A stretch of DNA of 36,513 bases from Chamaesiphon sp. 336R_metabinner_41 (GTDB lineage: Bacteria; Cyanobacteriota; Cyanobacteriia; Cyanobacteriales; Chamaesiphonaceae), in assembly GCA_025359915.1 (NCBI GenBank), contig JANYDE010000134.1, positions 1 through 36,513 of the forward strand, written 5' to 3'. The stretch's first letter is position 1. Every line of letters starts with the position of its first letter. Positions 17,436 to 30,644 of the stretch are shown in pieces. The position numbers and the translations under genes were made by a program. The notes beneath the pieces are model-generated. The model worked only from the letters and a program-made list of their open reading frames with translations, ran no database searches and was not told the DNA's origin.

Positions 17436-19103
17436 TTATCGACATGAGTCGAATAAATCTGGTGTCTTTGAAATTTTCCAGCGATTATCAATTTTTTTAA
17501 ATTCATAACAAGATGTAGCTCTATTGCTAGCAGAATCTTTCGCACTACCCGTTCGCGTATTGTGGAAAGTACGCTGCTCTGAGACAATTGCTATCACCCT
17601 TACTTCATCAGAACTGATCGATCGAATATCGGCAATTTTGTGTATCTGTTGGTTGCCATAAGTCCAATACATCCCATCATTTGCCAAATCATCTACTGAA
17701 CTTCTATCTCTACCAGAATTATCGGTGATATTTCTTTGATAGGCTAAACCAGTAGTTAAATCTTCACCAGCACTCTTGCGGTAGCCAGAGCCAAATATAC
17801 TTTTCTTAGCTTCCAACCATTGACTAATTAAACTACTAGCTTCATTATTATTCATTAGCTCGATCGAACTATCATCAGGTTTTGAGGAGATAGGAGAGCT
17901 GGGTGAAGAAACTGAAATAGGAGATTGCGACGAATTTCGATCGATTGATGGAGAAGCTGAATTAGTCGATGAAGGTGTGGGATTATTTTTACCGATCGAC
18001 ATACCTACAAATAGCATGAGCGCACCTAAAATTCCACCAATTAATAAAGTTTGTGGCGATTTATTCTCTGCTGGAGCCGGTTGAATACTCGTCTGGGGAG
18101 GTTGAATATTAGTAGGCGTGGTGAAGACAGTATTTGGTTGAGTAGAGCTAGTTGGTGGCGTGGTTTCGGCAAATGTGTAAATACTCGTTTCTGAGATCGA
18201 GATTGGCGGAGTTGGAGTAGGTGTATAAGTACTTGTTTCGGGAATCGGCGACAGAGGATCGATAATTATTGTCGATTGAACTTGAAATTCTTGGAGAACA
18301 TCCGCCGCAGAGGTGGGATGATTTAGTAATCTATCGATCGATCTTCTTAGTTTACCACTGCTAGGGCGCAGATAATTTTCCCACTGCCATTTTTGGGTAT
18401 TGGAATCGTATAAGTATTTTAATTCTCGATTACTTAGTAGATAAATAACAGTTACACCCAAACTGTACAGATCGAACTGTTTTCCGTTGGGAATATTATC
18501 TATACTAAGTGCTGTCAATTGTTGGCTAATGGGTTGAGCTACTTCACCACCAGCCGCAATTTTGAGTTCGGTAATGGCTCTAAAATCAGTTAAGATTGGT
18601 TGATTTTGAGCTTTGAATAAAATAGTATCTGGTGAAATGTTCCCGTGAACAATGCCCTGATCGTGCAGATAAGTTAAGACTGGAAGTATATCTTTGAGCA
18701 GTTTTTCGCAACGTTCTTCTGATAAGGGAACTGTCACCGCAGCAGGCTTACCTTGCACCGCGCCCGTAACTAGATGTAAATTATCACCTTCAACAAATAT
18801 CTCGATAATAGACTGAATGTTTGGATGTCTGAGCGAAATCAGTCGATCGATCTGACTGGTATAGGTTGCGAGAATTTCATCGGCTCGATCGGTTGAATAG
18901 GATTGAACGATCGCTGTTTTATCTTCTTTGTCTGGACAATCTACCATCACAGATTGCTCGGTGAAAGATGATTGGATGACAGTGATGGAAGTATACTTAG
19001 TTTGATTTAGCATCTTAGGATTAAATTGTAACTTTTTAGTTGCTTCGTTGTCAATATTTAATTGCCAAACTGATGTTTTAGCGATCGATCCCAACGAAAT
19101 CAT
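17436..19103 (-). CDS. Predicted pseudokinase with one span and an ARC6-type IMS-like domain
   Basis: A 555-residue protein. Residues about 40-280 have a Ser/Thr-kinase fold (HPNI 93-96, HGN at 153-155, DFR at 173-175, DLYSLGV 211-217), but the nucleotide Lys is missing (TAIV, 63-66), the helix-C Glu is Gln84, the HRD Asp is Asn155 and the DFG Gly is Arg175. No glycine loop is seen. A Pro/Thr/Ser-rich linker surrounds a span at about 353-371. Residues about 421-555 (ASSLISQWLEAKKSIFG onward) resemble the IMS domain (DUF4101) of ARC6/PARC6/CDP1 and cyanobacterial Ftn2 division proteins, which would lie in the periplasm. Cys532 and Cys554 may pair. It is 76 bases downstream of the VWA gene. Confidence 0.8.
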   Translation of the reverse strand: MISLGSIAKTSVWQLNIDNEATKKLQFNPKMLNQTKYTSITVIQSSFTEQSVMVDCPDKEDKTAIVQSYSTDRADEILATYTSQIDRLISLRHPNIQSIIEIFVEGDNLHLVTGAVQGKPAAVTVPLSEERCEKLLKDILPVLTYLHDQGIVHGNISPDTILFKAQNQPILTDFRAITELKIAAGGEVAQPISQQLTALSIDNIPNGKQFDLYSLGVTVIYLLSNRELKYLYDSNTQKWQWENYLRPSSGKLRRSIDRLLNHPTSAADVLQEFQVQSTIIIDPLSPIPETSTYTPTPTPPISISETSIYTFAETTPPTSSTQPNTVFTTPTNIQPPQTSIQPAPAENKSPQTLLIGGILGALMLFVGMSIGKNNPTPSSTNSASPSIDRNSSQSPISVSSPSSPISSKPDDSSIELMNNNEASSLISQWLEAKKSIFGSGYRKSAGEDLTTGLAYQRNITDNSGRDRSSVDDLANDGMYWTYGNQQIHKIADIRSISSDEVRVIAIVSEQRTFHNTRTGSAKDSASNRATSCYEFKKIDNRWKISKTPDLFDSCR

Positions 19104-19179: not shown

Positions 19180-20511
19180 TCAATTACGCTGAATTGCAAA
19201 ACAAAGCCGTCCAGCAGTCTTCTGTTGTTCGCTGACTTTACTTCCGAGCGAATCAATAAAGTCTACCAAGCCTAATGTTTTTGAGCCATCATTATTGCGA
19301 GACTTATTGATATCTTGATGCCAACTTTTCCACCCTTCAGGAACAGTTATGCCACTTGTGGGTAAATCGGCTGTCATATAATATATCCCGACGGGCAGAT
19401 CTTGAGGATTGATGGTGAGATTTGCGGTTGCGGTTGTGTCTTTTTGGGTGAGATTAAATTTTAGAGCTTTGGCTGCTGTGGTATTTTCTACCATTTTTTT
19501 TGTTTTGAGATCGTAGGATTGAGCAGTGGTGATTTGGACTCGATTAGTTGCAATGATTGGTGTTGTCGCTCCTTCACCTGTGGGAAAGTTTAGTTCATAA
19601 GTCATTCCCGTTAGAGGTTCTTGGGCGCGTTTATCGATTTCAAATAGTTCGATCGGTTGATTTCCGCGCTCGATCCGGATATCCTGCTGTAGGGATTGAG
19701 GTTGTGACAGTTTACCGCGTAGTTTCTCGACTTTTGCTCCAGGGACTTTGAGATAAGCCAATTCATCGCCAGGTACTTGATGGCGGAAGATTAATGTTTG
19801 GGCTGATTTCTCAAATTTGGTTTTGATTTTACCGATTAGTTGCGATACTTCGGCTTCATTCCCGATCGCTAACATGTAAAATGGTCGTTGTTTATCATAG
19901 CTAAAGGATGAGTTATTCAGGTTGTAAACAGTACCTTTGAAGTTGCTCTTAATCCCGATTAAGCCGACAGCGGAGTTAGGTTTCTGGACGTATGTGGCTA
20001 ATTTTTGGACGATCCGATTGACATCGCCTTTATCTTGCTCTAAATCAGTAACAACTACTACTAGGCTGCTCTTGCGCCCCTGATCGCTGTCTAGAGCTAC
20101 GTCAATTTTGCTATCTTTACCTTGATAAAAACTCGGTTGTCGTGCTGATTCAAAAAACGCATCGCGACTAATTGATTTAGCCGTACTGTCAAAGCTGAAA
20201 TACTTGGTTTGCTTGGGATCAAAAATTGAGTCTAATGCATTGATCGCCCCAGCATATTCACTACCATTGCTATTGACATAGCCCCCCATCGAGCCAGAAG
20301 CATCGACGAAAATTGCACCGGAGACATTACTATTATCAGTGCTTTTTTTGTCGATCGAGTTCGCCAATTGACAAGGTAAAGATTGTTTACCAGATTGAGT
20401 TTCCCCCTCTCTAGTTCCAATTGCAACATCTTGTCGATCGCAACTAGTTACGATCGATATTAAAGCGATCGATAGCGAAAATTTAGCACAATTAAGTAAT
20501 GTTTTATACAT
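19180..20511 (-). CDS. VWA-domain lipoprotein
   Basis: A 443-residue protein with a lipoprotein signal (SIVTSC, lipidated Cys24). A von Willebrand A domain starts at about 62 with the metal-ion-dependent adhesion motif Asp70-x-Ser72-x-Ser74 (DASGSM) and the later Thr155-Asp156 (VVTDLEQD). The C-terminal ~180 residues contain beta-rich segments with no family I recognise. The predicted location is the periplasmic face of a membrane, where VWA domains bind partner proteins through a metal ion. It is the first gene of the minus-strand arm and faces the divergent spacer. Confidence 0.85.
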   Translation of the reverse strand: MYKTLLNCAKFSLSIALISIVTSCDRQDVAIGTREGETQSGKQSLPCQLANSIDKKSTDNSNVSGAIFVDASGSMGGYVNSNGSEYAGAINALDSIFDPKQTKYFSFDSTAKSISRDAFFESARQPSFYQGKDSKIDVALDSDQGRKSSLVVVVTDLEQDKGDVNRIVQKLATYVQKPNSAVGLIGIKSNFKGTVYNLNNSSFSYDKQRPFYMLAIGNEAEVSQLIGKIKTKFEKSAQTLIFRHQVPGDELAYLKVPGAKVEKLRGKLSQPQSLQQDIRIERGNQPIELFEIDKRAQEPLTGMTYELNFPTGEGATTPIIATNRVQITTAQSYDLKTKKMVENTTAAKALKFNLTQKDTTATANLTINPQDLPVGIYYMTADLPTSGITVPEGWKSWHQDINKSRNNDGSKTLGLVDFIDSLGSKVSEQQKTAGRLCFAIQRN

Positions 20512-20952
20512 GCAAATCTATTTCAGCAGTGGGTTGAGTTGAATCAGTCAATAGTGTTAGATCGATCGAAACGTTGTTGGCTATCGATCCTTATATCCAA
20601 AGGTTTCGGTAATAGATTGTCACCTCTGTGATGATAGCATGCCCAATTATCCAGTCAATCTACTCAGTGACTACTCGCAATCTAATGTATGTAATAATAC
20701 TAGATCAGGTGCCCGATCTGAGTTCAGGAGAATTTTTGACCACGACCTCAATTTCAGTAACTTTTGTGGGTAGGTTAGAAGTATATCCTCCGATCGTCGC
20801 TATTTTTCAGGAAAATATTAATATTTGTTGAACTTAGATCTAGGTTGTTAAGATGTCGATCTTTGAATGAATTGGCTTTCACGACATCTATTAAATACCA
20901 GTGTTAGAGTAGGCAATATTCGGCAGTAAATTATTTTCAGTCACTTAAGAAA
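20512..20952. other. Divergent control region of the nine-gene locus
   Basis: The 441-base spacer between the VWA lipoprotein (minus) and the four-span membrane protein (plus) must hold the promoters of both arms. The only structure I see is an 8-bp inverted repeat, AGATGTCG (20851-20858) and CGACATCT (20882-20889), with a 23-base loop, about 65-100 bases before the plus-strand start. A 67-codon frame at 20628-20831 shows no protein-like features. Confidence 0.55.
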
Positions 20953-21450
20953 ATGAACAGTAAAAATGTCGGGGAAATTATCCGTTTATTCGTGTTTACC
21001 CTCGTTGGTTCTCTCCTCATGTTTGTCTTGCAGCCGCTGATTTATACGGCTGGAGTTGTGCGGCTATCAAATATTGAGAAGCAGGATCTGTGGCTCTCAG
21101 ATCATTACATGTCAGCAGCAACAATTGTATTTATTGTTTCTATATTAGCTACCTTTATCTGGTATGTATGGAATCTATATTCACCTCCTGCTGATGGCAA
21201 AATGGCATCGGCTCGATCGGTTGGATGGTGGATCTTATTGTTATTACCGATTTTGGGGATTGTAGCGGCTTTGGTATTTGCGGTTCAGCCCTCGCCCACC
21301 ATTGGCAAATTGACAGGTACTGACTTACCAATCTTGGCAGCGATGTTTAGCTTCGACGTACTGGCGATCTATTGGGGAGCCACTGCCAGTAGTACTCCTG
21401 GTTTAGCCAGAAGACTACCACCTGGATCGCAAGCAATCTTTCGTCGCTGA
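20953..21450 (+). CDS. Four-span membrane protein of unknown function
   Basis: A 165-residue protein with four predicted membrane spans at about 9-32, 52-73, 89-111 and 125-146, and a basic C-terminus (ARRLPPGSQAIFRR) likely in the cytosol. I do not recognise the family. It is the first gene of the plus-strand arm and is separated from the tubulin-like gene by 357 bases of repeats, so co-transcription is plausible but unproven. It could anchor the cytosolic proteins of the arm at the inner membrane. Confidence 0.72.
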   Translation: MNSKNVGEIIRLFVFTLVGSLLMFVLQPLIYTAGVVRLSNIEKQDLWLSDHYMSAATIVFIVSILATFIWYVWNLYSPPADGKMASARSVGWWILLLLPILGIVAALVFAVQPSPTIGKLTGTDLPILAAMFSFDVLAIYWGATASSTPGLARRLPPGSQAIFRR

Positions 21451-21807
21451 TGGGCTTACCCCCAACCCCCTTATCAAGGGTTGGCTCTCCGGCTCCCTCA
21501 ACTTTATAAGGGCTACCGTGTATACACAAGTCGGCTAGACTTCGTTGTCGATGGGCTTACCAACCCCCCTTATAAAGCGGATGCGCGTACTGTTCGGGTT
21601 CCTAGGGCACGTGTAGCGCGCCAAGCAGGGGGGGCTTTACTCCCTCCCCAAGGGGAGGGCTTTTCCGGCTCCCTCTCCTTTCTTTCCGGCTCCCTCCCCT
21701 TTCTTTCCGGCTCCCTCCCCTTTATAAGGGGAGGGCTGGGGTGGGGTAAACAACCCACGAAGCAACTCCAAAGCCAACCGAATATTTTCAAAGCAGATAT
21801 ACAAAAT
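21451..21807. repeat. Repeat-filled leader of the tubulin-like gene
   Basis: It contains three direct 21-base units starting at 21664, 21685 and 21706 (TCCGGCTCCCTCCCCTTTCTT with one variant), a hairpin CCCTCCCC/GGGGAGGG at 21642-21659 and another with 10-bp arms at 21713-21735 followed by CTGGGGTGGGGT. The outer parts (21465-21560) hold degenerate units of the same family. The whole stretch stays open in frame with the downstream gene because the units are multiples of three, but I regard it as non-coding. Confidence 0.8.
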
Positions 21808-23328
21808 ATGTCAACAAATAAATTATATGTAATTGGTGTCGGCGGATCGGGTGCTAAATGCCTAGAATCCATGATTCATTTTGCAGCGACGGGGCTGCTC
21901 GGTGACAGCAAACTCGAACTATTATTAGTCGATCCTGACGAGTCGAATGGAAACGTCGAGCGGACTCGCAATAGTCTGAATATCTATCAAAATTGTCAGC
22001 AATTAGTCAATGCTGGAGATAAAGCGGTAGACTCTGGTTGGATGGCGGCTTCGATCAAATATCATGGACTATGGTCGCCGTTTGCTAAAGAATCTCAAAG
22101 CCGCGAATTGGGTTCATTTTTTCGGTATAGTTCGCTCAAGAGTAACGAACCAGCTTTATCGAGTTTCTTTGATGTCCTGTATAGTGCCGAGGAACGCACT
22201 CAGACGCTCGATGAGGGCTTTAGAGGACGACCTTCGATCGGTTCGGCAGTGATGAGCCAAATCGACATGGATCGGCTGGCAGAAGAACCTTGGAGTACTT
22301 TGATCCAAAGTATTGAAGCCGATGCAGGTAATGGGCAAAATCCCAAGATTTTGCTGTGTGGCTCGATGTTTGGCGGTACTGGAGCTTCAGGCTTGCCAAC
22401 GATCGCCAAATTAATCAATAATCGGCTTAATCCCCCAGGTGAAAACAAAAATATTCGCGGATCTGTCAAATTAGGCTGCATTTTCTTGCTACCTTATTTT
22501 AGTTTTACCGCACCACCAAATGCCGAAAGTAACGAGGGTTTATTTGCTTCGGCGGATCATTTCTTGCTGAATACCGAAGCCGCACTGCGTTATTATGTCG
22601 ATCGCAGTGGCGATTTATTTGATAGTATTTATTTGCTAGGTAATGAAAGTACTGAGGCAGTTAAGTTTAGTGTCGGGCGCGGATCTCAGAGCAACAAACC
22701 CCATTTTATTGAATTGATGGCGGCTCTAGGTGCCAGAGATTTCTTATTAAACGATCGCGTTGATAGTCTGATGCTGCTAAGTAGACAGAAACAGGGTTTG
22801 GTGACATGGAGCGATCTCCCAGATTGGCCGAATGTCAAAAGATTGATGGCGAATACCACTAGATTATCTTATCTCTGGCTGTCAGAAATTGAGAAAGAAT
22901 TAGAACAAGCTCGAATTCAAGGTTTTAGCCGCTTTAGTAAACTCGCACCTTGGTTGGATCGTTATTATGATACGGGAGATCGCAGTGAAGCTGCCTTTAA
23001 ATTTGATACACCCCATCAACAGGATGCGATCAAAGTAATTAGTACTTGGAGTCGGGATTATCTCCGCTGGATTAATAGTCTACATGAATGCGAAAGCGAT
23101 CGGATCGAACTATTCAGAACTCAAAATTTGGGCGATCTAAATGGTAATATCCGCCGCGATAGTCTCAGCGATTTGATCGTCGATGATACCCGCGATCCTC
23201 GCACCAAACGTCAGCAAGATGATTTGGCAAGTATTAAGGATGGCTTAAATAGTAAACGCCGAGAAGAGATTAATCGCGGTACTTCTGGACTCGCCAAAGC
23301 CCTCTACAAGCAAGTCACTCTAGGTTAA
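21808..23328 (+). CDS. Tubulin/FtsZ-like GTPase (Tubulin_2 type)
   Basis: A 506-residue protein. The N-terminus LYVIGVGGSGAKCLE (6-20) matches the first nucleotide loop of tubulin/FtsZ, VDPDES (41-46) the second strand end, and SMFGGTGASG (186-195) the GGGTG(T/S)G signature loop that binds GTP phosphates. It resembles the bacterial tubulin-like family named Tubulin_2 rather than the cell-division FtsZ. The C-terminal half (from about 290) is helical and charged, without the FtsZ C-terminal peptide. The frame extends upstream through repeat DNA, but the ATG at 21808 directly precedes the family-like N-terminus. It precedes the SrfB-like gene by 68 bases. Confidence 0.85.
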   Translation: MSTNKLYVIGVGGSGAKCLESMIHFAATGLLGDSKLELLLVDPDESNGNVERTRNSLNIYQNCQQLVNAGDKAVDSGWMAASIKYHGLWSPFAKESQSRELGSFFRYSSLKSNEPALSSFFDVLYSAEERTQTLDEGFRGRPSIGSAVMSQIDMDRLAEEPWSTLIQSIEADAGNGQNPKILLCGSMFGGTGASGLPTIAKLINNRLNPPGENKNIRGSVKLGCIFLLPYFSFTAPPNAESNEGLFASADHFLLNTEAALRYYVDRSGDLFDSIYLLGNESTEAVKFSVGRGSQSNKPHFIELMAALGARDFLLNDRVDSLMLLSRQKQGLVTWSDLPDWPNVKRLMANTTRLSYLWLSEIEKELEQARIQGFSRFSKLAPWLDRYYDTGDRSEAAFKFDTPHQQDAIKVISTWSRDYLRWINSLHECESDRIELFRTQNLGDLNGNIRRDSLSDLIVDDTRDPRTKRQQDDLASIKDGLNSKRREEINRGTSGLAKALYKQVTLG

Positions 23329-23391
23329 GTAATAAGTAATAAGTAATAAGCTTCCATAGCTATCAACTATCCCCTATCCCCTATCCCCTAT
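23329..23391. repeat. Heptamer repeats between the tubulin-like and SrfB-like genes
   Basis: GTAATAA occurs three times at 23329-23349 immediately after the stop codon, and CCCCTAT three times at 23371-23391, ending five bases before the next start codon. They leave no room for a Shine-Dalgarno site. The first heptamer also occurs, inverted, three times at 28953-28973. Confidence 0.92.
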
Positions 23392-23396
23392 CCCCC

Positions 23397-26300
23397 ATGC
23401 CCGTATTTGTTTTACCGAAACTCAAAGAAAATTCAGAACTGACTTTACCCGACAAAAGTGGAGAATGGCAAGTATATTCTCGCTCCAGACTCAAAACCCT
23501 CGCCAAGGATCTCGACTATGCGGCTCCTGGAGATCGTAATCTAATTAACTCAGTTCCTACCATGTGGGCTGCTTCCCTGACGATGGAGATGGGATTAGTC
23601 GATACCAGTCATCCACTCCATCTCGATACCGTAGTGCAATGGCAAGGGATGTTAGCAAGTATCGCCCTAGCCAAAGTCCGTAGTCTCCCGCTCAAGGTAG
23701 CGCGGATCGATCTCGAAGAATACCGTCACCATACATTTGCCGAGGCTCTGGTAAATCTTCAACCCGCAGAAACCCATAACCTCTACAAACTCAAGAACAA
23801 AAATGCTTGGTTAGATAACTATGTCTGGTTTTGGAACGATCGTCCAGTCGGCATGACTAGCCCTAGTACCTTAGTAGTACCTACTGTTGACGGGCGGTGG
23901 GAAGGCTTACCCTGGTGGAATCGCGATACCAAACGCTTCCGTCGTCCCCATGACTACCTCTCCGCCGAAGAGCAAGCCCTACTCAAGGGCTGGTTGTTGA
24001 ATCTAGAAAATCAACTGATGACGGGAGAAGACAACTCCACCGCTATCAATCGAATCGTAGGGCTGATTAATCTCTTTCAGGCTGATTTAGTCGGGAATAT
24101 CTCTAAAGCAGAAATAAACAGCATCCTGGATGACGATCCGGCTTACTTTGGTGTGCCGATTAGTACCGGAATTTTGACAGCTCTCAATCAACCAGCCAAA
24201 CTCAAAGATATCGGTAGTGGTGACTCTCATGTGCGGGTAGTCGGGAGTGAGAGCAAAAAGCCCACCAAGCCATTGCTGATCATCGATCTAGCCGTTGCCA
24301 ATCTCTGGAGTCTCCAACCCCAAGATATCCGCGTTCACAAGGATAAAACCCTCGCATCACTGAATCTCGACGATCTCCGCAGTGGCAGGATTATGAACTG
24401 GGATGACGTAGTATGGCGAGAAACTAAGGATTTATTCTTACCCAACCTGGCTTTTATCGATCGAGAAGCTGCATTACTAGGCGGGATTTCCGTCACCGCG
24501 AATCAACCGCTAGTATTTAACGGCAATAAAATCACACCGTTGATTCCCTTAGATAACATTTTACTCGAATACTTCACCCCCGAAGATTTAGTAAAACGGT
24601 TGAAATTTACTCAAAATGGTACGGGCAATACCGTTCGTGTCACCTTAAACTTACCTTTGTCTGGTGTCAATACGACTAGCAATCGCCCTCAAGAATTTCA
24701 AGTCTACAAAGACTATCCCCTAGAGGAACAACACGCTCTATTTGATGTCCCAGTCTTAGAAGTATGGCCGAACTTTCGCATTCCTAGCTGGCAAGAATAC
24801 TATGGTTTCTACTTTGATTGCAACTTGGGAGAGCGTACTTTCAATATTGAATTTACCGAAGCAAAAGAACCTCATCAATTTGAAGAAAATAGTGGTAAAT
24901 ATCTAATTACGCGCTTGAATGAATTTCCTAGTGCGATTAAATGTGTAGACAATTATCGCGACTCCCTCGGCTTAATTTTAATCAAACAACCGCCAGAATT
25001 AAAATTAACCGAAATCTGGAAAGTCGGAGTAGATTTTGGGACTTCCTTTACTAATATCTATGTCAATCATCGCGATGCAGTCAGCCAACTAAAAATTAAT
25101 TCCCAAGATGAGCGAGATACTTTACATCTCAAAATAGCTGATGCTGACTTATCTACTCGCGTCAACGTTCTGTTTGAATACTTCATTCCTGAACGATTTT
25201 TACCAGTCGATAATCCGCTACCTTTAGCAAGTATCTTAACTACTCGTGGTCAAACTGGCACCAATCCTCGGCGTACTATCTATGATGGACGGATTTACAA
25301 TCCCAAGTATGGCAGTGCCCAGCATCGAGAAATAGAAAATACTTATATTGAGACTGATATTAAATGGAAAAGCGTCGATTCAAATCGACTATTTCTCCAT
25401 CATCTATGCTTGATGATCACCGCAATTGCTGTCAAGCAAGGCGTTAAACAAATCGAGTGGAATATTTCTTATCCTTCAGCTTTCTCTAGCAAAGAAATTG
25501 GTAAGTATGCAAGAAACTGGAAAGATATTACCACCGATCTTCAAGAGAAAACTGGTATTCAACAAATATGTCCTAACCAGGGTGATTTCCGCACCGAAAG
25601 TTTGGCAATCGCCCAATACTTTGGCGACAAAGAGAAATACGACTTAATTCGCAGCGTCTGTATCGATTTAGGTGGTGGTACTGCCGACATTTCACTCTGG
25701 CAGGAAAATCAATTAGTCTATCAATGTTCAGTCCAATTAGCTGGACGACATTTATTCTCAGAATTGATCGAAATGCGCCCAGATTTACTCAGTAAATGGT
25801 TTGACAATCAAGATAATTGGAACAATCTTTCCCCTGATAAATTCAAAACCAAAATTGATGTCCTCCTCCGAGAAAAAAGCCAACAATGGTTGAGTCAAGA
25901 ACGGCATAAATATGAGGAAGACGAACAATTCCTCGGCTTTACGCGATTAGTCTCCTTGGGGATGGCTGGGCTATACTATTATGTCGGTACGATCGTCGGC
26001 GTAATGAAGCGTACAGAGGGTAAATACACCGAAACGAAGAGTCCATCTGTATACATCGGTGGTAATGGTTCTCGGCTGTTAAATTGGCTAGTAGCAACTG
26101 GTGAATTTGATGAATATTCCAATATTAATGGATTATTTAATCGGATGTTAAGTAGTGCCTCCGATCTGCAAGAAATTAAAGATCCTACCAGAGTTAGTAA
26201 AGCTCCTAAGGATGAAGTTGCTTGTGGCTTAGTGTTAGGGCGAAGTCGTCTAACTGGAATGGATCGAGGAACTGTCGATCATCCAATCGCCGGAGAAAAC

Positions 26301-26666
26301 TTTACCATCAACGGTGAGGACTTCTTATTTAGCAGCCGATTGAATACCGATGATATTGATGGTAATATCAATAGCTTTACCATCCCAGATCTCCGCAATC
26401 TCAAAGAATTTGTCGATCGATTCAATGAAGCCGTCATCGATCTCAAAGTTGACGATCTCAAACCCTTGGATAACTATAACAAACGTGAAAAATGTTTGGA
26501 TCAAGACTATAGCGATCTATTATGGGATAAAGTTGATCGCCAACTGCGCAGCGTACTCGCTAATATTCGTGGTGATGCTACCGCAATTCGTGAAGAACCT
26601 CCATTCATCTTAGGCTTAAAGGCGTTACTCAATGTCTTAGCCAAAGAATGGGCTAGTAAACGCTAA
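23397..26666 (+). CDS. SrfB-like protein with actin/Hsp70-type ATPase motifs
   Basis: A 1089-residue protein. An ASKHA (actin/Hsp70/sugar kinase) domain occupies about 540-960: phosphate-1 motif VGVDFGTSFTN (Asp546), phosphate-2 motif IDLGGGTADIS (Asp757, Gly759-761) and adenosine motif YIGGNGSRLL (Gly888-889). The overall size and motifs fit the family called virulence factor SrfB, whose role is unknown; the name does not imply virulence here. The first ~530 residues are soluble with no recognised domain and no signal peptide, so the protein is cytosolic. It lies 68 bases after the tubulin-like gene and is followed by a hairpin repeat. Confidence 0.82.
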   Translation: MPVFVLPKLKENSELTLPDKSGEWQVYSRSRLKTLAKDLDYAAPGDRNLINSVPTMWAASLTMEMGLVDTSHPLHLDTVVQWQGMLASIALAKVRSLPLKVARIDLEEYRHHTFAEALVNLQPAETHNLYKLKNKNAWLDNYVWFWNDRPVGMTSPSTLVVPTVDGRWEGLPWWNRDTKRFRRPHDYLSAEEQALLKGWLLNLENQLMTGEDNSTAINRIVGLINLFQADLVGNISKAEINSILDDDPAYFGVPISTGILTALNQPAKLKDIGSGDSHVRVVGSESKKPTKPLLIIDLAVANLWSLQPQDIRVHKDKTLASLNLDDLRSGRIMNWDDVVWRETKDLFLPNLAFIDREAALLGGISVTANQPLVFNGNKITPLIPLDNILLEYFTPEDLVKRLKFTQNGTGNTVRVTLNLPLSGVNTTSNRPQEFQVYKDYPLEEQHALFDVPVLEVWPNFRIPSWQEYYGFYFDCNLGERTFNIEFTEAKEPHQFEENSGKYLITRLNEFPSAIKCVDNYRDSLGLILIKQPPELKLTEIWKVGVDFGTSFTNIYVNHRDAVSQLKINSQDERDTLHLKIADADLSTRVNVLFEYFIPERFLPVDNPLPLASILTTRGQTGTNPRRTIYDGRIYNPKYGSAQHREIENTYIETDIKWKSVDSNRLFLHHLCLMITAIAVKQGVKQIEWNISYPSAFSSKEIGKYARNWKDITTDLQEKTGIQQICPNQGDFRTESLAIAQYFGDKEKYDLIRSVCIDLGGGTADISLWQENQLVYQCSVQLAGRHLFSELIEMRPDLLSKWFDNQDNWNNLSPDKFKTKIDVLLREKSQQWLSQERHKYEEDEQFLGFTRLVSLGMAGLYYYVGTIVGVMKRTEGKYTETKSPSVYIGGNGSRLLNWLVATGEFDEYSNINGLFNRMLSSASDLQEIKDPTRVSKAPKDEVACGLVLGRSRLTGMDRGTVDHPIAGENFTINGEDFLFSSRLNTDDIDGNINSFTIPDLRNLKEFVDRFNEAVIDLKVDDLKPLDNYNKREKCLDQDYSDLLWDKVDRQLRSVLANIRGDATAIREEPPFILGLKALLNVLAKEWASKR

Positions 26667-26672
26667 AAAGCT

Positions 26673-26707
26673 ACCCCACCCCAGCCCTCCCCTTATCAAG
26701 GGGAGGG
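26673..26707. repeat. GC-rich hairpin repeat inside the plus-strand arm
   Basis: ACCCCACCCCAG followed by CCCTCCCCTT (26685-26694), loop ATC, and AAGGGGAGGG (26698-26707). It is the reverse orientation of the copy at 7678-7712. It lies seven bases after the SrfB-like stop codon and 38 before the next start, so it could reduce expression of the three downstream genes or protect an mRNA end. Confidence 0.9.
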
Positions 26708-26745
26708 TGCCGGAAAGCCATCGCATTCTACCCAGTGATTAAGTT

Positions 26746-27543
26746 ATGTCTAATCTAACGATCGATCTTCAACACATTCTGCAATCCTTAAGCAAGGAAC
26801 AACTAATTAGTCTTCAACAGATGCTTCCCGCATTGAAGATCGAGATCGATCGATTAATTGGGCAAATTCCCGCAGTAGATCGATCGACAGATCTCCAATC
26901 TTTGATAACGAAAATTGCACTAGAATCTCCAGTATTTATCGAATCTCTTGCGCGAGAAATCATCAAACAAGAAGCCGGAACGCCAAGTTCCCAATCAACA
27001 GATAATATTTTACCAATCGAGCATCAATCTATAGCTAAATTAACTCAGTCAGAAAATATATTTCTACCGATTTTTTCACAAGAATCGCAAAATGTGGTAC
27101 CATCCGGAGCAAATCCACAAATAGAAATTTCAAATCCCAATGATGCTCGCAGAAATGCTTTATTTCAATTAATCGATATTTATAATAATAGTCATGAACA
27201 GCTTATCAGAAAATATCCGACAATACCAGTTATAGAAAGTCAAGCTAGTATTGAAAAAAGACGCAGCAATAGTGGTACTATGCCATTTCTATCTAAAGCT
27301 AGAGCAGAGCGATCGACATATTTAATTATACAAGACCAAGAACAAGCATACATATTTCCAGATCCCAACCTAGTTGTCAACCCACATAATCTTGACACGG
27401 TTGAAGCATTATTCAAAACCACAAATTACTATTCAAATTACAAAAGTATTCAGATAATCGATCCATCTATTGCCAATCTTAAAAATCCACCAGATGGCGA
27501 AGAATGGATAGTGGTAAAAAAGGGTAATTTAATCTTTATATAG
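26746..27543 (+). CDS. Cytosolic protein with the shared YN-P-VN domain (protein A)
   Basis: A 265-residue protein without signal peptide or membrane span. Residues 1-75 look helical (SLSKEQLISLQQMLPALK), 76-130 are polar linker. Residues about 140-265 form a domain that matches the C-terminus of the next protein with identical spacing: Tyr146-Asn147, Tyr192, Pro205, Val211-Asn212, Asp217, Glu220, Phe223, Tyr232, Pro240, then a KKG turn (258-260). I know no name for this domain. It is the fourth gene of the plus-strand arm, 18 bases before the next gene. Confidence 0.75.
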   Translation: MSNLTIDLQHILQSLSKEQLISLQQMLPALKIEIDRLIGQIPAVDRSTDLQSLITKIALESPVFIESLAREIIKQEAGTPSSQSTDNILPIEHQSIAKLTQSENIFLPIFSQESQNVVPSGANPQIEISNPNDARRNALFQLIDIYNNSHEQLIRKYPTIPVIESQASIEKRRSNSGTMPFLSKARAERSTYLIIQDQEQAYIFPDPNLVVNPHNLDTVEALFKTTNYYSNYKSIQIIDPSIANLKNPPDGEEWIVVKKGNLIFI

Positions 27544-27561
27544 TCGTATTTTTAGATAATT

Positions 27562-28824
27562 ATGAAAAATTTAAAATTGCTGATATTTATCGTTACTTGT
27601 GCTAGTTTATTTAGCAGCTTTAGTGAGATGGCGATCGCCGAAACCGATCCGAGAACAGAGTATCAGAACTTGCAAACCCGAAAATACAAAGATTTGCAAA
27701 CAGAATTAATTTATTTATTGGGTAGAAGAGTTGAAGAAAAAGATGCGAAGAAAGGAACAACGATCGGTACTAAAATCATGGCAAATCTCAAACAGACTAA
27801 TAGCAGTCTGGACGAATTAGCCCAACTAACTCCAGACGATGCAACCAAAACAGAGTTGTCAAATCTCAAAACTATTCTGTCATTTACCAGCCTTTCAGAT
27901 CCAATTCAGATCGCCAAAATTCAGGAATCATTAAATCTAACAGACAAAAGTAAAACATTCGACAAATCGACTTATGAGGCTCTGAAAGCAAAAATAGAAG
28001 CCACGGGTAAAAAGATCGTTCCTTCATCTAGTAACGCGGAATCAAATCAAAATCCTGAAAAATCCAAGGACTTAGACGGTAAATCAGCACCACAAGAATC
28101 TAATCCTACATGGTTCTTACCTTACTTACTTTCACTATTTTCGACTATCGGTAGTGGTGCTGCGATCTTTTTTGTTTGGAAACACAATCAAAGATCTCAA
28201 GAAAAGGGTAATAGTAAATTAAATATTTTCAAAAATGAAGTTAAATCTAAAATAGATCGATTAGAATCTCAGAATTCAACTTTGTCAACTAATATTGGCA
28301 AGCTATCGCAACAAATAAGTACAGAGTCTATCCGCTCATCGAAAGGAACTACAAAACAGTTGCCTAGCTACAATGAAAATCAAGATTTGTACAACATAAA
28401 TACTCATTCTGTTAGAGAAACTGTACCAGCTCCACAGTCTCCACTGCCGCGACAATCATCTTTAGTTGATGAATATAATCAAGATCCAAATGTATTTAAA
28501 AATAGACGCTCGATTCAAGAAGTCGGCGAAGAACAACACAATATAGAAGGGCGCAGAAGTGGTCAAATTAAAACTGTCAATCTTAGCCCGATGGAGCGAC
28601 GGCGTGGTGGTTACTGGGTATTGAGTCACGAGCGACAACAAATCATCGTTCCATCCGCAGATCTGCGAGTTAATGATTTTAATCGAGACACTACCGAATC
28701 TATTTTTGATTGCATCAATTTCAATGCCAGTTATCGCAAAATTATATTGATTCAACCAGCAATTGTCGAATCAATATCAATGGGATATCAAGTCATTAGT
28801 AAGGGAATAATTGAGTTTGAATAA
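27562..28824 (+). CDS. Membrane-anchored protein with the shared YN-P-VN domain (protein B)
   Basis: A 420-residue protein with an N-terminal signal (about 4-26, cleavage after AIA likely), a helical external region (28-180), one span at about 184-205, then a positively charged, coiled-coil-prone segment (225-255), a linker, and a cytosolic C-terminal domain (300-420). That domain repeats protein A: Tyr305-Asn306, Tyr351, Pro364, Val370-Asn371, Asp376, Glu379, Phe382, Tyr391, Pro399, Lys414-Gly415. It could link an outer-membrane-side or periplasmic partner to cytosolic members of the locus. The family is unknown to me. Confidence 0.75.
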   Translation: MKNLKLLIFIVTCASLFSSFSEMAIAETDPRTEYQNLQTRKYKDLQTELIYLLGRRVEEKDAKKGTTIGTKIMANLKQTNSSLDELAQLTPDDATKTELSNLKTILSFTSLSDPIQIAKIQESLNLTDKSKTFDKSTYEALKAKIEATGKKIVPSSSNAESNQNPEKSKDLDGKSAPQESNPTWFLPYLLSLFSTIGSGAAIFFVWKHNQRSQEKGNSKLNIFKNEVKSKIDRLESQNSTLSTNIGKLSQQISTESIRSSKGTTKQLPSYNENQDLYNINTHSVRETVPAPQSPLPRQSSLVDEYNQDPNVFKNRRSIQEVGEEQHNIEGRRSGQIKTVNLSPMERRRGGYWVLSHERQQIIVPSADLRVNDFNRDTTESIFDCINFNASYRKIILIQPAIVESISMGYQVISKGIIEFE

Positions 28825-28866
28825 ATCGAATTTAGTCACAATCGCGATAGAATAAACATAGTCACA

Positions 28867-28950
28867 AACTAATTGTAAAAATTAGTTAGAGGGTTTATGA
28901 CGATCGCTACTTCTCCTTTAGACACCCAAGCTACGATCTCCTACGATTGA
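28867..28950 (+). other. Hairpin and 17-codon reading frame, possible gene remnant
   Basis: AACTAATT/AATTAGTT (28867-28887, loop GTAAA) precedes a short frame at 28897-28950, MTIATSPLDTQATISYD, which has a plausible site (TTAGAGGG) just upstream and then stops. It reads like the normal start of a cyanobacterial protein cut short, but I cannot name the parent. It may equally be chance. Confidence 0.35.
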
Positions 28951-28952
28951 AC

Positions 28953-28973
28953 TTATTACTTATTACTTATTAC
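28953..28973. repeat. TTATTAC heptamer, three copies
   Basis: Three perfect units, the reverse complement of the GTAATAA triplet at 23329-23349. It lies 30 bases before the WD40 gene start, so the two sets flank the SrfB-like to protein B segment in inverted orientation. Confidence 0.9.
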
Positions 28974-29003
28974 TTAATTTAAGTGCTAACCTAAACCAGA
29001 TAT

Positions 29004-30644
29004 ATGACCATTCCGGCGATCGATCGACTCATTCAACAACTCCAAACCCTCGAAACGAAGTTCGATGAATTGATGCTATCGTTGATGGCTGGTCAAATTC
29101 CAGTTAAGCTGACTAAAGCTGCGAGAATCGAAGGGGCGAAAGTTGAAGCTCCTACCCCTCAGCTCAAACTATCTGAGTCAAAATTTGTTGAAGTATACAA
29201 CGAAATCCCCGTTTTACTCAAAGCCTATACCATTCCAGTCGATTGGACTACAGATAGCTACCAAAATCCCAAGCGTCCACCGCTGATTCTCGAACCTTGC
29301 AATAATAGTAATTATTGGGTAATTCCCGTATTGGTAGCCGATGCGATTACTTATTGGCTAGTTCCCAATCCCCTGCGTCAAATTCGATTAGATCGACTAG
29401 AACGCCTGAGCTACTTATTTGAATACTCCCTCCTCAACCCCGCAGATCGAGACTCAGAATTTCACTTAGTCGCACCCGCCAAAGTGAGCTATTACTTCGA
29501 TACAGGTGCCCCAAAGTGGAAATTGGAACAACCAGGTCAACTCGCTGTTACCAGTGGTGCCACAGCCAAATCTGACCCCGTACAGCTCATCGAAGCCCTT
29601 GGGCAACAGGTGCGGCGACAGGAAGCAACCATCGGACAACTTCAGCAACAAATGGCGCAGATCCTGAGCGGGAGGACATCAAATCCCCCCGCAGCTCCCA
29701 GCCTTGAGCCGATTGAAGCAAAGCCAGATCCAATTTCCCCTTGGGCTAATCCCAAATTAATTCATTCGCTCACAAGTCAGGCAGGTACGATTAAATCGAT
29801 CGCATTGACTCGATGGCAAGGAAATAATAAACTGATTCTGTTCGCCAGTAGCCAGAGTGGAACGATCGAAATCTGGGATCTCGAAGCTGGTAGTTTCTTT
29901 TCCGGCATTTCTCGGAGTAAAGAATTGATGCCAGATACCCCAACGATTGCGATTATCCCACACCAAAAAATTCTCATTTCCACGACTGAAAATCACCAGA
30001 TTACGGCGCATTCTATTGGCGAGGGAAAAAAAGACACTTATGGCGAACATGATGCATGGATTCTAGCTCTTGCTCTAAGTAAAGATTCCACTTATCTAGC
30101 CACCGGAGATCGACAGGGGATTGTCAAAATCTGGGACACCGAGCGGAAATCTCTGATTAAAACGATCGAACATGATGCCCCGATTATCTGCATGGAAATT
30201 ACCCCAGATAATCAATATCTAGTCGTGGTGGATGCTAAACATCAAATCCTATTTTGGCTGATGAAAACAGCTCAAAAACATACAGTAAGAGGATTAGACG
30301 ATTTAGCAAGATCGATCGCCATTAGCCCTGACGGTAAATATCTCGCACTCGGTTTTCGCAATGGTAGCATCCAAATCTGGGATGCCCAAAATTTTACCGT
30401 TAAACACGATCTAACTCAAAGCCATCAACAAGTTTGGAGCCTAGCCTTCGATCCTCGATCTCAAGTGCTAGCTTCTGGTGGTGCTGAAACTAACCTTTGT
30501 CTCTGGGATGTTGCTACTGGTAATTTAATCTCTCAGCCCAGCAGTCACCAAAACTCAATTTATGCTTTGACATTTAGTGCAGAAGGTGAAACTCTAGTCA
30601 CGGCTGGAGCCGATGGAATTATCGATTGCTTTAGGAATCGCTAA
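29004..30644 (+). CDS. WD40 propeller protein with a divergent shared domain (protein C)
   Basis: A 546-residue cytosolic protein. A short helical N-terminus (1-30) is followed by a domain at about 60-182 that resembles the C-termini of proteins A and B (Tyr65-Asn66, Tyr104-Trp105, Pro121, Leu124, Glu133, Phe139, Pro158, Trp172, Gly178). A predicted coiled coil follows (192-222), then a Pro-rich linker and about seven WD40 blades (250-546), for example GIVKIWDTE, GSIQIWDAQ and LCLWDVATG. Such propellers are protein-binding platforms. It is the last gene of the plus-strand arm; its end overlaps the converging menC gene by 14 bases. Confidence 0.88.
   Translation: MTIPAIDRLIQQLQTLETKFDELMLSLMAGQIPVKLTKAARIEGAKVEAPTPQLKLSESKFVEVYNEIPVLLKAYTIPVDWTTDSYQNPKRPPLILEPCNNSNYWVIPVLVADAITYWLVPNPLRQIRLDRLERLSYLFEYSLLNPADRDSEFHLVAPAKVSYYFDTGAPKWKLEQPGQLAVTSGATAKSDPVQLIEALGQQVRRQEATIGQLQQQMAQILSGRTSNPPAAPSLEPIEAKPDPISPWANPKLIHSLTSQAGTIKSIALTRWQGNNKLILFASSQSGTIEIWDLEAGSFFSGISRSKELMPDTPTIAIIPHQKILISTTENHQITAHSIGEGKKDTYGEHDAWILALALSKDSTYLATGDRQGIVKIWDTERKSLIKTIEHDAPIICMEITPDNQYLVVVDAKHQILFWLMKTAQKHTVRGLDDLARSIAISPDGKYLALGFRNGSIQIWDAQNFTVKHDLTQSHQQVWSLAFDPRSQVLASGGAETNLCLWDVATGNLISQPSSHQNSIYALTFSAEGETLVTAGADGIIDCFRNR

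Follow-up and report, generated by a model that had tools for sequence, protein, structure and literature searches.

One unnamed domain shared by three neighbouring proteins of a cyanobacterial operon with a tubulin-like and an actin-like gene

Introduction

Why should a tubulin-like and an actin-like gene of a cyanobacterium be followed by three genes for proteins that seem to have nothing in common? This question is raised by a contig of Chamaesiphon sp. 336R_metabinner_41 (JANYDE010000134.1, assembly GCA_025359915.1), of which the whole stretch of 36,513 nucleotides was analysed and is called the window here. Its operon encodes a small hydrophobic, apparently membrane-spanning protein (labelled TM), a tubulin-like protein (TUB), an actin-like ATPase (ACT) and the proteins A, B and C. 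A sequence-only reading of this DNA had proposed that A, B and C carry one apparently unnamed domain on differing bodies, duplicated within the operon and serving as a docking module for the tubulin-like protein or for ACT, which it called SrfB-like. We find that one domain, labelled DOM here, is indeed common to all three proteins, and we suggest that it may well be an adaptor for ACT.

One domain on three different bodies

Protein A (265 amino acids; open reading frame, ORF, at 26746..27543 of the forward strand) consists of an N-terminal part, which the sequence-only reading took to be helical, followed by DOM at residues 134–265 (27145..27540, forward), as delimited by a hidden Markov model (HMM) and supported by an AlphaFold model; at E 1, neither Pfam nor NCBIfam has a family that matches the protein. 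Protein B (420 amino acids; ORF 27562..28824, forward) has, according to a topology read from its sequence, a signal-like N-terminus and a hydrophobic stretch that begins at residue 184 and stops near 206, and ends in a DOM copy at residues 293–420 (28438..28821, forward; alignment, profile and HMM limits). Protein C (546 amino acids; ORF 29004..30644, forward) starts with a short N-terminal part, continues with an N-terminal-type copy of DOM at residues 53–183 (29160..29552, forward; profile, hhalign and AlphaFold), and ends in a WD40 propeller (Pfam E 3.7e-32, 109.8 bits versus a cut-off of 27). All three pairs of limits are from the HMM; the sequence-only reading gave about 140–265 for A, 300–420 for B and 60–182 for C. 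No fourth copy was found in the source genome at E 1 or better.

The ungapped alignment of A 146–240 with B 305–399, noticed from the letters alone, holds up well: 30 of its 95 residues are identical and 43 positive (raw BLOSUM62 score 118). The two domains reach a local score of 133, which none of 2000 shuffles attained (mean 28.8, standard deviation 5.1, maximum 60). Protein C is another matter. The A–C and B–C domain scores were reached by 141 and 230 of 2000 shuffles, respectively, and are not significant; the earlier description of C as a more divergent version therefore understates its distance. Full-length A against C gave a score that only 15 in 2000 shuffles reached; this alignment, however, runs through the N-terminal region of A and not the domain.

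Profiles bridge this distance. The first search set comprised 790 ORFs from the window and 20 related regions, which had been selected because they matched B, C or ACT, with the reversed ORFs as control. A two-row profile of A and B picked up another 28 ORFs (27 of them at E ≤ 4e-5, one at 0.0035) and no reversed ORF; at that stage protein C was missed. One further round of profile building, with C kept out of the training rows, reached C 56–183 at E 5e-21, and the following round did so at 3e-25. Because relatives of C sat in the iterated training set, A/B-type copies (28 rows) and C-type copies (51 rows) were also compared as separate profiles, which hhalign aligned over 123 columns with a probability of 100 and E 1.9e-43. 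Hence, A is linked to B and both to C, and we conclude that A, B and C share one domain.

Predicted fold and library searches

AlphaFold predicted the domain of A confidently from a 139-row alignment (A3, 139 non-redundant of 178 copies), with a predicted local distance difference test score (pLDDT) of 93.7 and a predicted template modelling score (pTM) of 0.86. The domain of C, predicted from the 51 C-type rows only, gave a pLDDT of 91.5 and a pTM of 0.86. Both models have an identical order of 13 helices (H) and strands (E), H-H-E-H-E-E-E-H-E-E-E-E-E, at nearly the same positions. Judged by the order and position of elements, without superposition, the predicted folds agree; differing folds were not seen in this comparison, which covers A and C, not B.

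Known structures and families gave little to compare with. Against PDB structures, the best hits of the A and C models had E 0.39 and 0.28 with Foldseek and Z 2.1 and 2.2 with VIA-align, and the best viral structure model had E 0.14 with the A model. PDB sequence-profile searches with DOM peaked at E 0.046 and 0.067. The 45 domains of alignment A1 (45 of 66) had only single-member matches in Pfam, at E 0.016 or worse, and PHROGs likewise yielded single-member matches alone (best E 0.00099). Full-length DOM proteins (alignment A4, 119 of 138 non-redundant proteins from 156 DOM ORFs) were compared with Pfam and NCBIfam; among the first 25 families listed for each (25 of 45 for NCBIfam), the NCBIfam names were mostly of coiled-coil, propeller and FGE type. 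Thus, no convincing match was found for DOM in the Pfam, NCBIfam and PDB libraries searched, where it is unnamed. Its predicted fold may be new, although a missing structural match is no proof of novelty.

Linkage and co-occurrence with the actin-like ATPase

A scan with the ACT alignment, one genome per species, yielded 79 named loci (L078–L156; loci carry L-numbers and genomes G-numbers) from the best 80 of 159 relatives. They are mainly cyanobacterial, with one labelled Poribacteria, one Euryarchaeota and seven Selenomonadaceae or Selenomonadales, and some share one genome (e.g. three from Xenococcus MO_188.B8). Linkage counts were restricted to these loci, because our other locus set overlaps them (e.g. 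L058/L086 and L059/L089). The locus labelled Euryarchaeota archaeon CPC89 (L134) has vWA-like, TM, TUB, ACT and DOM genes in the mainly cyanobacterial order; this contig is possibly mis-binned or mislabelled.

The order TM–TUB–ACT on one strand occurs in 55 of the 63 loci whose contig extends 4 kb or more upstream of ACT, and 47 of these 63 have a homologue of the vWA-like gene of the window. Four loci with less than 600 nucleotides downstream of ACT (L080, L104, L112, L117) were excluded from the downstream count. Among the remaining 75, DOM is adjacent to, near or fused with ACT in 68; in 63 of these it is adjacent or fused, and in L085 and L111 it lies 313 and 467 nucleotides further on. 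A more sensitive scan detected DOM in L152, L156 and L143 (E 1.3e-9, 4.8e-9 and 4.5e-4).

Co-occurrence was assessed in 146 cyanobacterial genomes, with E cut-offs of 1e-10 for ACT, 1e-3 for DOM and 1e-5 for TUB. ACT was found in 16 genomes, DOM in 17 and both in 14 (Fisher p 6e-15, a value that ignores shared ancestry), while TUB was found in 15, every one with ACT. The two genomes with ACT but not DOM have a split ACT with an internal stop (G042) or a short match close to the end of a small contig (G035); those with DOM but not ACT have fragments (G048, G087) or a full copy (G058). DOM proteins at L158 5461-7047 (G058) and L159 5296-6924 (G083) lie distant from any actin-like gene.

Natural fusions of DOM and ACT

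In three loci of Selenomonadales (L155, L152, L156), DOM forms the C-terminus of an ACT protein of 1232–1245 amino acids. This fused protein is the sole ACT found in the respective genomes (G173, G175, G174), where TUB lies on a different contig; no TUB occurs in the 7.8 and 8.9 kb of sequence that precede ACT in L155 and L156. Conversely, in Lyngbya confervoides (L105 15404-18388) and in L060 (11574-14687) DOM stands at the N-terminus of a second actin-like protein with altered nucleotide motifs. Since the two types have opposite order, at least two fusion events are likely. The DOM arrays of L089 (16735-18933), L090 (15816-18008) and L106 (15940-18165) likewise include a second actin-like protein whose nucleotide motifs are altered; all five are possible pseudo-actins. 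No ORF in the set combines DOM with TUB, TM or vWA-like matches.

Fusions to a sole ACT, with TUB elsewhere, indicate that ACT rather than TUB is the likely partner of DOM. Of the proposal of a docking module for the tubulin-like or SrfB-like protein, docking remains the best reading, and the fusions narrow the putative partner to ACT.

Architectures and history of the copies

In the window and L078–L156 together, 104 of the 156 DOM ORFs have a single C-terminal DOM, and by a simple hydropathy rule 58 of these contain a hydrophobic segment. In a further 28 a tail follows the single DOM, and 24 have two or three copies. WD40 repeats occur in five of the 119 DOM proteins scanned, among the matches listed. 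At L111 (18156-19976) the WD40 repeats of a C-type DOM protein are replaced by an FGE-sulfatase domain (Pfam E 9.5e-58).

A tree over 128 columns covers 74 of the 178 domain copies, taken from 20 sources chosen by hand; 32 of its 71 inner branches are open. It groups C with the third copy of L078 (support of 98 in the Shimodaira–Hasegawa-like approximate likelihood ratio test, SH-aLRT) and places B beside the second copies of L078/L079 (SH-aLRT 88, branch drawn open), and it leaves the position of A open. B and C seem to predate the split from L078/L079. Elsewhere, pairs within a locus reach 91% identity, which implies that duplication of DOM is recurrent. The suggestion that the domain was duplicated within the operon is thus right for the family, whereas B and C do not appear to be recent duplicates of their neighbours.

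Other genes and features of the window

ACT (1089 amino acids; 23397..26666, forward) has DFGTS, GGGT and GGNGSR motifs, and the corresponding DFGTS, GGGT and GGN.SR columns are invariant across the eight rows of alignment A2. In Pfam, all eight of these homologues have weak FtsA matches and six have weak MreB matches, whereas the window protein itself scores below the cut-offs. Judged by its phosphate-1, phosphate-2 and adenosine-type motifs, all of which are present as in the FtsA/MreB ATPases, ACT is a member of the actin superfamily. It differs from FtsA and MreB in its length of about 1090 amino acids, with a large N-terminal region. The label SrfB-like is not supported: at E ≤ 0.1, the Pfam matches of the eight aligned homologues include no SrfB family, where we take SrfB to be PF07520 and presume it present in the library searched. 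A phage origin of ACT was also rejected; the search, made with ACT and not with DOM, gave one weak viral-contig match (24% over 97 residues).

TUB (21808..23328, forward) has a GGTGASG loop. Its score against Tubulin_2 (Pfam PF13809), 23.6 bits, is under the cut-off of 27, which four of five scanned relatives exceed, and the GTP-loop motif GG[TS]G[AS] is present in 66 of 68 TUB ORFs. By these signatures TUB is a Tubulin_2-type protein with a GTP loop. The listed ORF start at 21481 crosses a GC-rich repeat stretch, and the ATG at 21808 is likely the true start. Such intergenic GC-rich DNA, full of repeats of the CTCCCC...GGGGAGGG type, occupies 21430-21807 and 26670-26725. Between operon genes, at 23328-23350 and 28940-28980, there are also short heptamer-like repeats in tandem (TAATAAG and its complement).

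The small hydrophobic TM (20953..21450, forward; ORF), with membrane spans read from sequence, is conserved in the operon. Its divergent neighbour (19180..20511, reverse) is called vWA-like after a MIDAS-like motif (DASGS), and it also has a lipobox-like motif (IVTSC). Among 53 homologues, 29 have DxSxS within the first 140 amino acids and 35 a lipobox-like motif; the two members scanned, including that of the window, have no Pfam vWA match. The gene at 17436-19103 (reverse; library scan) encodes a protein kinase that includes an ARC6-like IMS domain. The kinase was rejected as a member of the system, with homologues in 6 of the 100 sequences searched (window counted).

The window contains no more CRP-type sites than expected by chance: 8 with at most two mismatches versus a chance mean of 14.7, and none within 19180-30644. 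Seven window proteins gave no match to a known anti-phage system in PADLOC beyond a single hit on the WD40 part of protein C.

Counterpart in Synechocystis and related systems

By gene order, sll0443–sll0449 of Synechocystis PCC 6803 would be the counterpart of the operon: vWA-like, TM, Tubulin_2 and FtsA-like genes are followed by three more, as in relatives. A locus from the genus group of Synechocystis salina (L068, genome G076; S. salina itself is L130) has the order vWA-like, TM, TUB, ACT, DOM, DOM, DOM, and DOM occurs in all five genomes of that genus.

Sll0445 (Tubulin_2), Sll0446 (FtsA domain) and Sll0447 are reported to associate with Slr2015, Slr2018 and photosystem proteins, and insertion mutants of each of the three genes to show impaired phototaxis and altered fluorescence curves (PMC9880817). 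The genes sll0443–sll0449 are listed as a single transcription unit, for which a putative CRP site is given (PMC2633013), and expression of sll0447 is lower in a sycrp1 mutant (cited in PMC9880817). A lexA-mutant table gives ratios of 3.8 to 5.9 for sll0443, sll0444, sll0445 and sll0448, which, in a table seen without column heads, we take to mean raised transcripts (PMC4759255). Sll0445 and Sll0446 are listed as deregulated in a comFB mutant (PMC12313861). The accessible text of PMC9880817 differs from our reading in that it labels Sll0447 a DivIC-domain protein and leaves a shared domain of the last three genes unmentioned. The two S. salina DOM proteins that follow ACT have no DivIC match in Pfam at E 0.01.

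Operons of FtsZl1 (Pfam Tubulin_2) and vWA proteins have been described, with a predicted role in membrane remodelling (Makarova and Koonin 2010, PMC2875224). As here, where the protein is vWA-like only by motif, a Tubulin_2-type protein lies near a vWA protein and membrane proteins, cyanobacteria included. In contrast, the partners named in the text available are vWA, GTPase, kinase and OmpA-like proteins; in the main text 'actin' occurs only in general statements, references and unrelated words, and no domain common to the neighbours is described. Its additional files list unnamed families A1–A2 and B1–B9. A reviewer in that paper mentions a PilA-like neighbour in Thermosynechococcus, whereas the motif scan of our 79 loci gave no pilin linkage. 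We found no earlier description of DOM in the literature searched, which lay mostly outside subscription journals and did not include the additional files of PMC2875224. We therefore rate the operon type as partly known, and DOM as a new domain family in a known class of cytoskeleton-like systems.

Discussion

The reading that we favour, at a probability of roughly 55%, is that DOM is a docking domain or adaptor for ACT within a membrane-linked machine of tubulin and actin type. DOM would be compact, of alpha/beta type and some 125 residues long, and through it each DOM protein would dock onto ACT, bringing its own body along. The B-type body, with its membrane-spanning part, would attach the machine to the membrane, the soluble A-type body would link it to soluble partners, and the C-type body would offer a scaffold, for example a WD40 propeller. 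Where copies stand in tandem, one protein could join several ACT subunits. In Synechocystis, the counterpart machine would be needed for normal phototactic movement and would associate with pilus proteins. This adaptor reading is supported by homology, predicted fold, conserved linkage and fusions from our analysis, and by the published mutant phenotype and co-fractionation. We infer the binding of DOM to ACT, the simultaneous use of A, B and C, and a connection with pili in this organism. More tentatively, DOM might have a new fold and be dedicated to the ACT of a machine in which tubulin-type and actin-type proteins are coupled across the membrane to the vWA-like lipoprotein; such a machine might guide or assist phototaxis driven by pili. 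What it is attached to might then depend on interchangeable DOM proteins, fused degenerate actins among them.

It is possible, but unlikely, that DOM is instead a self-association module: copies carried by separate proteins would associate to form a scaffold, with ACT linked only indirectly. Loci with several DOM ORFs (up to five in L078–L156 and seven in L060) and proteins with up to three copies would fit this idea. So would the separate clustering of N-type and C-type copies on the tree (4 label changes versus a shuffled mean of 21), as hetero-pairs might show. Yet 22 of the 79 loci have a single DOM ORF, some of them on short contigs, and the fused ACT–DOM lineages imply a tie to ACT itself.

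We consider it improbable that DOM is a sensory or regulatory domain, binding a small ligand or peptide and tuning the machine. The regulators of the Synechocystis unit (CRP site, PMC2633013; sycrp1, PMC9880817; lexA, PMC4759255) would suit such a role, but they concern the operon rather than DOM. Moreover, the near-invariant positions of DOM are hydrophobic, proline or glycine (P72, F90, A108, W121, G127), with no polar, catalytic-like set.

In the FtsZ–FtsA–ZipA division system, a tubulin-type and an actin-type protein work with membrane-anchored adaptors, and ZipA docks on FtsZ. The machine proposed here resembles it in having both kinds of protein and membrane-anchored adaptors, but DOM differs in having no found relation to any solved structure. 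By this analogy DOM might dock on TUB, and TUB, ACT and DOM do co-occur in the same genomes; co-occurrence alone cannot separate TUB from ACT as partner, because all three share genomes. The lack of any DOM–TUB ORF in the set and the three genomes with DOM fused to ACT and TUB on a different contig speak against docking on TUB, which we likewise consider improbable. Finally, chance similarity or low complexity, which the A–C and B–C pairwise scores within shuffles might suggest, is refuted by the profile E-values, the empty reversed-sequence controls and the confident, matching models.

Several observations weigh against docking on ACT as we propose it. No DOM was found after ACT in seven of the 75 loci (L095, L113, L122, L123, L145, L148 and L153, the last of which ends 643 nucleotides downstream of ACT). 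The contig of the fusion locus L152 begins 1.4 kb before ACT, so that a break in the contig may explain why TUB lies apart, and the co-occurrence of TUB with DOM is nearly as tight as that of ACT with DOM. The clearest exception is G058, with a full DOM (E 7e-23) and neither ACT nor TUB found; DOM may for this reason have a second role. Unlinked extra copies occur in G083, G109 and G119. Pilin-like genes were not seen near the loci, where a motif scan gave one weak match in 79 loci and none in the reversed control, and linkage to them was rejected. In Synechocystis, sll0447–sll0449 are probably DOM genes because relatives show the matching seven-gene order, a step that leans on gene order in relatives.

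With DOM, three seemingly unrelated hypothetical proteins become one family. The little-studied Tubulin_2 operons gain a testable wiring diagram, in which the actin-like ATPase is the named candidate partner of DOM. Via gene order, a reading can be offered for Synechocystis genes that have a phototaxis phenotype but no mechanism. As a domain that is confidently predicted and has no found structural relative, DOM is a good target for structure determination.

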